Source of the DNA: Nocardiopsis flavescens
GTDB lineage: Bacteria > Actinomycetota > Actinomycetes > Streptosporangiales > Streptosporangiaceae
Assembly (NCBI RefSeq): GCF_900141985.1
Contig: NZ_FQZK01000003.1
Span: 434,001 to 498,000 of the forward strand
DNA length: 64,000 nt
Reading direction: 5' to 3'
The notes beneath the pieces were generated by a model, which saw nothing but the letters and a program-made list of their open reading frames with translations, was not told where the DNA came from and ran no database searches. Every line of letters starts with the position of its first letter. Position 1 is the stretch's first letter. A program made the position numbers and the translations under genes. Positions 49,641 through 57,154 of this stretch are shown piece after piece.

Positions 49641-51395
<1,755 letters not shown>

Positions 51396-55028: not shown

Positions 55029-55307
55029 TCAGCAGCCGCCCGCGACCGCGGGGATGATCGAGATCTGCGCGCCGTCGGCGATCTCGGTCTCCAGGCCCTT
55101 CGCGAAGCGCACGTCCTCGTCGCCGACGTAGACGTTGACGAACCGGCGGACCCTGCCGCCGTCGTCGAGGATGCGGGCCCGGATGCCCGGGTGGTTGGCC
55201 TCCAGGTCGTCGATGACCTCGGCGAGGGTGCTCCCCTGCGCGGTCACCTGGGCGGCGTCGTCGGTGTAGGTGCGCAGGATGGTGGGCACGCGAACGCTGG
55301 CGCTCAT
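55029..55307 (-). CDS. MoaD/ThiS/CysO-family sulfur carrier protein
   Basis: A 92-residue beta-grasp protein. SVRVPTILRTYTDDAAQV is the first beta hairpin, RFVNVYVGDEDVRF a middle strand, and the C-terminus ISIIPAVAGGC is the sulfur-carrier tail. Carriers of this family end with Gly-Gly, which is adenylated and turned into a thiocarboxylate. Here a Cys follows, so the tail would have to be trimmed by a protease before use. It follows the threonine-synthase-like gene by 69 bases on the same strand, behind a SAM riboswitch, which suggests a sulfur donor role in methionine or cysteine synthesis. Confidence 0.85.
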   Translation of the reverse strand: MSASVRVPTILRTYTDDAAQVTAQGSTLAEVIDDLEANHPGIRARILDDGGRVRRFVNVYVGDEDVRFAKGLETEIADGAQISIIPAVAGGC

Positions 55308-55376
55308 GGCGTCCTTCTTCTCTGTGTGGGTCGTGGGATGAAGGCCCCGGGGCGCGGCGGCGCCCCGGGGGCGGGG

Positions 55377-56636
55377 TCAGGCCAGCCCGGCCTCGGTGAA
55401 CGCCTTCAGCGACGGGGCGATGGTGGCCGTCACCCCGGCACTGACCGCGTTCAGGGTCTTGAGCCCGTCGCCGGTGTTGAGGACGACGGTCTCGGCCCCG
55501 GGGTCGAGCCGGCCCTCGCGGACCAGCTTGCGCAGCACGCCGGTGGTGACGCCGCCCGCGGTCTCGGCGAAGATGCCCTCGGTGCGGGCCAGCAGCGAGA
55601 TCGCCTCGACCACCTCGTCGTCGCCCACGTGCTCCACCGATCCGCCGGTGCGGCGGGCGATGTCGAGGACGTAGGGGCCGTCGGCCGGGTTGCCGATGGC
55701 CAGCGACTTGGCGATGGTGTCGGGCTTGACCGGCTGGATGACGTCGTGGCCCTTCTCCCAGGCCTGCGCGACCGGGGAGCAGCCGGTGGCCTGCGCGCCG
55801 AAGATCTTGTACGGCCGGTCCTCCACCAGGCCCAGCTCGACCAGCTCCTGGAAGCCCTTGTCGATCTTGGTGAGCTGGGAGCCGGAGGCGATGGGCACGA
55901 CGATCTGCTCGGGCAGCCGCCAGCCGAGCTGCTCGGCGATCTCGTAGGCCAGCGTCTTGGAGCCCTCGCCGTAGTAGGGGCGCAGGTTGACGTTGACGAA
56001 GCCCCAGCCCTCGCCCGCCTCGTCGCCGATGAGCTCGGAGCAGAAGCGGTTGACGTCGTCGTAGTTGCCGTCGATGGCCACGACCCGGCCGCCGTAGACG
56101 GCGGCCATGACCACCTTGGCCTCCTCCAGGCCCGCGGGGATGAACACGCAGGACCCGAACCCGGCCCGGGCGGCGGCGGCTCCGACGGCGCCGGCCAGGT
56201 TGCCGGTGGAGGAGCAGGACAGGGTGGTGAACCCGAAGTTGCGGGCGGCCTCGACGGCGATGGCCACCACCCGGTCCTTGAAGGAGTGGGTGGGGTTGCC
56301 GGAGTCGTCCTTGACGTGCAGGGAGGCCAGGCCCAGTTCGGCGGCGAGGCGGTCGGCCCTGACCAGGGGGGTGAGGCCGGGGTTCATGTTGGGGAGTTCG
56401 GCGACGTTGTCCGGGACCGGGAGCAGGTGCCGGTAGCGCCAGATGTTGGCGGGGCCGCTCTCGATGTCGGCACGGGTGACGGTGCCGAAGTCGTAGGCCA
56501 CTTCCAGCGGGCCGAAACAGAACTCGCAGGCGAACCGGGGGGCGAGGTCGTAGCGCTCACCGCACTCGCGACAGGACAGCGCTGCTGCGGGTCCGAAGGC
56601 GCGGACGGCGGTGGGTTCGGTGGCGGTCATCGCCAT
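55377..56636 (-). CDS. thrC: Threonine synthase-family PLP enzyme (possible homocysteine-forming paralogue)
   Basis: A 419-residue fold-type II PLP enzyme. The N-terminus has a small zinc ribbon (C22, C25, C37, C40), as in many actinobacterial threonine synthases. HSFKDR contains the PLP lysine, K120. CSSTGNLAGAVGAAAARAG is the phosphate-binding loop and IASGSQLTKIDKGF another conserved block. It would act on O-phosphohomoserine. A SAM-I riboswitch directly upstream and a sulfur-carrier gene downstream are unusual for plain threonine synthesis and suggest that sulfur may be the nucleophile. ATG 56636; ATG 56630 is also possible. Confidence 0.85.
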   Translation of the reverse strand: MAMTATEPTAVRAFGPAAALSCRECGERYDLAPRFACEFCFGPLEVAYDFGTVTRADIESGPANIWRYRHLLPVPDNVAELPNMNPGLTPLVRADRLAAELGLASLHVKDDSGNPTHSFKDRVVAIAVEAARNFGFTTLSCSSTGNLAGAVGAAAARAGFGSCVFIPAGLEEAKVVMAAVYGGRVVAIDGNYDDVNRFCSELIGDEAGEGWGFVNVNLRPYYGEGSKTLAYEIAEQLGWRLPEQIVVPIASGSQLTKIDKGFQELVELGLVEDRPYKIFGAQATGCSPVAQAWEKGHDVIQPVKPDTIAKSLAIGNPADGPYVLDIARRTGGSVEHVGDDEVVEAISLLARTEGIFAETAGGVTTGVLRKLVREGRLDPGAETVVLNTGDGLKTLNAVSAGVTATIAPSLKAFTEAGLA

Positions 56637-56651
56637 GGCGAGGCGTCTCCC

Positions 56652-56790
56652 CTCATCTTCCCTGGCGGACACCTTGTCCCCAGGCCGGAGTTGGCACCTG
56701 TCCCGGCCGCCTCGCGTGTGCGCGAGCGATGTACGCCGAGATGGTTGCCGGGGCTTCGCAGGGCCGGTCCCTCCACCCCTCTGGATGAGC
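56652..56790 (-). promoter_or_regulatory. SAM-I (S-box) riboswitch before the threonine-synthase-family gene
   Basis: The minus-strand RNA reads CTCATCCAGAGGGGTGGAGG near the start, then GGCCCTGCGAAGCCCCGGCA, a variable P3 arm, AGGTGCCAACTCCGG, and closes with GATGAG. These are the hallmarks of SAM-I: P1 closed by CTCATC/GATGAG, the GGUGGAGGGA core and the GCAACC/AGGUGCCAA joins. The 3' P1 strand touches the GAGGGGAG ribosome site, so SAM binding would probably block translation of the gene that begins 15 bases later. Confidence 0.9.
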
Positions 56791-57154
56791 AATATGAAAT
56801 TGTCGAGCGTTGTGTCGGTTCCTTCCGGATCCGGCATGGTCACTGTAACGGACGGGTCGGGCCGTTTTCCACGGGGCGTGATCCGGGTAACACGAACCGA
56901 CTCACATGGTGAGACGGCGCAGGTCCGGGGGTGACGCGTGCACGTGCCGTGTTTCCGGGGGGTGACATCGCACGCCGGGGGCCGGAGGTCGGGTTTGGGG
57001 CGGGTGCCCACCGGCGAGACCTAGGGTGCGCCCTCCGCCGTCCGCCGCCCGCCTTTCGCGCACCGGGCGGTGTGCCGGACCCGGGGGCCGTTTCCGTATT
57101 CTTCGCCCGACCCGTCAGACCCGCGGAACCGCGCGCCCGAGAGGACGAGACCAC
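56791..57154. other. Divergent intergenic region between the riboswitch and otsA
   Basis: This stretch should hold the promoter of the riboswitch transcript (minus) and of otsA (plus). The part next to the riboswitch, about 56791-56850, has an AT-rich patch with ATATGAAATTG, which is the probable -10 area for the minus strand. The middle is GC-rich. No gene is supported. Confidence 0.4.

Follow-up and report, generated by a model that had tools for sequence, protein, structure and literature searches.

The locus described here very probably encodes the MetM/MetO route to methionine in a Nocardiopsis-like organism, and SAM would control its translation. It is an orthologue of a known system whose mechanism has already been published for Streptomyces, and the chemistry of the two proteins is very probably the one described there in 2024, from which we carry it over. 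The window, i.e., the whole stretch of 64,000 nucleotides that was analysed, contains the parts of this system in direct succession (Table 1), with metO 69 nt downstream of metM on the same strand. A SAM-I riboswitch, a threonine-synthase-like gene and a carrier had been noticed at this place in a sequence-only reading, and they are real, with correct coordinates and naming. Their layout is conserved far beyond chance: the riboswitch stands upstream of the metM orthologue in all 40 related loci scanned, and metO comes after metM in 79 of 80, the exception (L028) being a locus where the contig ends ca. 75 nt past the gene. The MetM orthologues are 75–92% identical, and the nearest named loci are mostly from Nocardiopsis (86–92% protein identity).

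Table 1. Parts of the metM-metO locus, with positions in the window.
Feature	Position	Strand	Basis
SAM-I (S-box) riboswitch aptamer	56650..56791	minus	RF00162 match, 72.0 bits; same place in 40/40 related loci
Short expression platform (putative function)	56637..56657	minus	Sequence, 40-locus layout, folds computed with P1 enforced or prevented
metM-like gene, threonine-synthase-family PLP enzyme, 419 aa	55377..56636	minus	TIGR00260, PF00291, orthologues
metO-like gene, ubiquitin-fold sulfur carrier, 92 aa	55029..55307	minus	PF02597, SAMP1

The aptamer matches the full RF00162 model (1–108; 72.0 bits, gathering threshold 44.4; E 6.8e-15), and its internal hairpin is larger than in the Rfam model. 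RF00162 has no second match in the 7.17-Mb genome, the assembly of which is rated 100% complete. A SAM switch agrees with the earlier proposal of methionine control. Between its 3' end and the metM ATG (56636) there are merely 13 nt, and the spacing from aptamer to start codon is 10–18 nt across the 40 loci. This rules out an intrinsic terminator after the aptamer and, without space for one, makes it most likely that metM-metO is controlled at the level of translation. The P1 3' strand GATGAGGG abuts GAGA (Shine-Dalgarno-like GGGGAGA), followed by GCCTC and the start codon, and in the alignment the ATGAG in P1, the purine-rich stretch and the CCTC before the ATG are common to all 40 loci. When SAM is plentiful, the riboswitch would fold and its P1 helix would sequester the bases next to the ribosome-binding site, and less metM-metO would be translated. 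Folding with P1 either forced or blocked gave a mixed result in the window, while the ribosome site clearly opens in three related loci (L032, L034 and L056). The conserved GAGG in the P1 strand could also pair with the downstream CCTC (56637–56657), which would compete with P1 and leave the ribosome site in a loop; since these pairs are invariant, covariation cannot test the pairing.

The metM-like protein has the PALP fold (PF00291), reaches 275 bits against the TIGR00260 thrC model (cut-off 167) and is ca. 34% identical to ThrC of the same genome. It carries an N-terminal Cys-x2-Cys...Cys-x2-Cys knuckle (C22, C25, C37, C40), and its PLP lysine, which like the fold is evident from the sequence, is Lys120 in NPTHSFKDR. 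Like the ThrC enzymes with which it was compared (2d1f, 1uim, 6cgq, 2zsj and the genome's own ThrC), it is a fold-type II PLP enzyme with Lys120 and the cofactor motifs (STGN and IGNP) retained. In contrast, 47 positions that are near-fixed among 81 MetM sequences differ from the residue common to four true ThrC. Several of these positions belong to the loops that in ThrC hold the substrate and its phosphate, and the ThrC substrate-loop residues SVNPYR, GNAGN and TGNGLKD are replaced in the 81 MetM sequences: the ThrC loops SVNPYR.EGQK, VGNAGN and TGNGLKD correspond to NLRPYYGEGSK, IASGSQ and TGDGLKT in MetM. By these comparisons, MetM is a distinct branch that can follow the chemistry of ThrC as far as the PLP-bound intermediate, which would be expected if the nucleophile alone had changed.

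The partner protein belongs to the ThiS/MoaD/SAMP1 family and ends in ...PAVAGGC. Its closest solved relatives are 4n6e_B, a ThiS/MoaD family protein, and CysO 3dwg_C, in line with the earlier description of the carrier as CysO-like; we take 3dwg_C to be CysO of M. tuberculosis. Thiocarboxylation in this class of proteins needs a terminal Gly-Gly, and MetO has this pair plus one extra residue (-GGC), so that its tail is probably trimmed before charging, supposedly by a Mec-like protease. The C-termini of MetO in 79 relatives read -GG (46), -GGC (28), -GGAR (3), -GGQ (1) and -GGA (1). The CysO encoded in the same genome is 53% identical to MetO, ends in -GGSR, i.e., with two extra residues, and lies beside a JAMM-type Mec protease. 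What follows the Gly-Gly of the carrier (nothing, C, AR, Q or A; 55029–55040 in the window, loci L022–L101) differs among close relatives, which suggests that dependence on trimming can arise and disappear with ease.

The remainder of the genome leaves room for such a route. A canonical thrC lies between hom and thrB (hom-thrC-thrB, L002; ThrC at G000:C43:68784), which leaves the paralogue free for another role; the sequence-only reading had proposed to look for a second thrC near thrB and hom, and its refuting condition, that the gene in the window be the only thrC of the genome, fails. Also encoded are MoeZ with a C-terminal rhodanese domain, a complete CysM-CysO-Mec cysteine cluster (L103; G000:C43:3222-4974) and MetH, so that a full path from sulfur to methionine via the carrier can be drawn. 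Along this path, the terminal residue past the Gly-Gly of MetO would be removed and MoeZ would adenylate and thiocarboxylate the carrier. MetM would take O-phospho-L-homoserine from the hom-thrB branch and eliminate phosphate on PLP, upon which the MetO thiocarboxylate, rather than water, would act as the sulfur nucleophile and homocysteine would be obtained after release from the carrier. MetH would then methylate homocysteine to methionine. The 2024 work of Hasebe and colleagues reportedly describes just this formation of homocysteine from O-phosphohomoserine and thiocarboxylated MetO. The scheme resembles CysM/CysO/Mec (M. tuberculosis 3dwg and the copy in this genome) in its combination of a phosphorylated substrate, a PLP enzyme and a thiocarboxylated carrier. 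It differs from it in the proposed substrate O-phosphohomoserine, which is one carbon longer, in the presence of a SAM riboswitch and in an enzyme that comes from the ThrC rather than the CysM branch; moreover, the carrier in the window is not beside cysM or mec, and the cluster that contains these genes has its own carrier. A groEL gene is found ca. 3.8 kb downstream of the metO-like gene (49641–51269, minus strand), and the Streptomyces metM locus presumably has groEL nearby as well.

The Streptomyces report of an O-phosphohomoserine route to which the sequence-only reading referred does exist: it is Hasebe et al. 2024 (Appl Environ Microbiol 90:e01247-24), reference 44 of PMC12172450. As summarized there, MetM is a novel homocysteine synthase of Streptomyces that averts methionine auxotrophy, metO was named in S. 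albulus, and a SAM riboswitch lies upstream of metM in this organism (Hasebe et al. per PMC12172450). Within the bounds of that summary, the locus in the window shares with the Streptomyces system the threonine-synthase homologue, the adjoining sulfur carrier and the upstream SAM riboswitch, and it differs from it in the Nocardiopsis-like host, in the MetX and MetY that are also encoded and in the -GGC end of the carrier. The Streptomyces orthologues in our comparison, which did not extend to the S. albulus sequence, are 75–79% identical and have identical gene order and riboswitch. Outside Streptomyces, the sole accessible test of a homologue concerns ThrC of M. aeruginosa, for which an identity of 51.6% with S. 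albulus MetM is quoted. This enzyme had threonine synthase and deaminase activity and gave no clear homocysteine (PMC12172450). A literature search for more papers on the MetM/MetO route returned none besides this one. In a reannotation of S. lividans, an operon with a SAM riboswitch (RF00162), SLIV_16930-SLIV_16925, is filed under 'Threonine biosynthesis' (PMC8079986). This operon is very likely the metM locus under an old name. In S. coelicolor, we take SCO4293 to be the metM orthologue. ArgR bound the upstream region of this gene, listed as a 'putative threonine synthase' (PMC3293853), and via this site arginine regulation may also reach the metM operon.

The expectation that metX, metY and metB would be lacking proved wrong, as all three are matched above curated cut-offs. 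metY (NF005872, 786.6 bits, cut-off 703) and metX (NF047917, 542.8 bits, cut-off 475) are adjacent on one contig (L102; G000:C45:190193-192621), and a metB/CGL-like gene is found on another (C50; NF005871, 674 bits, cut-off 513). NF047917 was used for MetX after the TIGR01392 cut-off (500 bits), which none of the control genomes reached, had been dropped. The whole-genome RF00162 search gave no SAM riboswitch at the metY-metX pair. With these genes present, MetM need not be the sole source of homocysteine; judged by these matches, two homocysteine routes are encoded together, which is a mild twist on the known system, and the methionine route via MetM is probably present here though not necessarily the only one.

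MetM was found in all 151 genomes sampled from the order (at least 69% identity among the matches listed) and a MetX match (E <= 1e-60) in 47 of them, 26 of these at no less than 68% identity. Within the genus, MetX occurs in 14 of 31 genomes. It is absent from the relatives that have the most similar MetMs, G138 (97% identical) and G122 (94%). When the further PF01053 members of six metX-negative relatives were searched for MetY, none reached a MetY cut-off. In the class, 71 of 98 sampled genomes have MetM (at least 61% identity). MetX is present in 35 and absent in 36 of these 71, compared with its presence in 24 of the 27 genomes without MetM (Fisher p = 4e-4, kinship ignored). This distribution is the pattern that would be expected from two alternative routes to one product and, with MetM universal in the order and MetX patchy, the standing route would seem to be the one via MetM, and MetX-MetY the accessory one. 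The metY-metX pair is present in this genome although G138 and G122 have no metX, and its MetX is closest (82%) to that of another species of the genus, which suggests gain or repeated loss. In three genomes of the class sample (G159, G208 and the contaminated G157), no match to MetM or to MetX reached the thresholds applied, and these genomes may have another homocysteine route or be incomplete.

Against this background, it is most improbable that the metM-like gene is just a second threonine synthase next to a carrier that serves cysteine, molybdopterin or tRNA thiolation. A TIGR00260 score of 275 bits, above cut-off, the filing of the S. lividans operon under 'Threonine biosynthesis' (PMC8079986) and the threonine synthase activity of the cyanobacterial homologue (PMC12172450) would fit such an enzyme, but metabolically there is little reason to put a threonine gene under a SAM switch, and the canonical thrC is already in place in hom-thrC-thrB. 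Furthermore, the 47 fixed MetM positions set the protein apart from ThrC, the carrier gene adjoins metM in 79 of 80 loci, and Streptomyces MetM has been published as a homocysteine synthase, as far as this is related in PMC12172450. We also consider it improbable that MetM uses free sulfide or shares CysO, with MetO as a helper instead of the obligatory sulfur donor. The 53% identity of MetO and CysO, with CysO-CysM-Mec encoded elsewhere in the genome, means that the carriers might be exchangeable, but a second carrier directly behind metM in 79 of 80 loci despite CysO points to a dedicated donor.

A different possibility would leave the proposed activity of MetM and MetO intact and have MetX-MetY make most of the methionine in this organism, with metM-metO redundant or conditional. 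The adjacent metY and metX, each above its curated cut-off and without a SAM riboswitch, lend this some plausibility, but none of the genomes sampled from the order lacks MetM, whereas MetX is scattered and missing from G138 and G122, and we regard a merely redundant or conditional metM-metO as rather unlikely. For the larger picture, we can only tentatively propose that the O-phosphohomoserine route via MetM and MetO is the standing one in most of the class and MetX-MetY patchy or secondary, and that the carrier might share trimming by Mec and charging by MoeZ with CysO, which would tie cysteine and methionine synthesis together.

The MetM/MetO route would account for methionine synthesis in many actinomycetes without MetX-MetY, and it implies that many genes annotated as 'threonine synthase' may be misnamed homocysteine synthases. 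The SAM riboswitch at these loci would thereby gain a sensible target, and the apparent coexistence of two homocysteine routes in one genome would make their division of labour directly testable.
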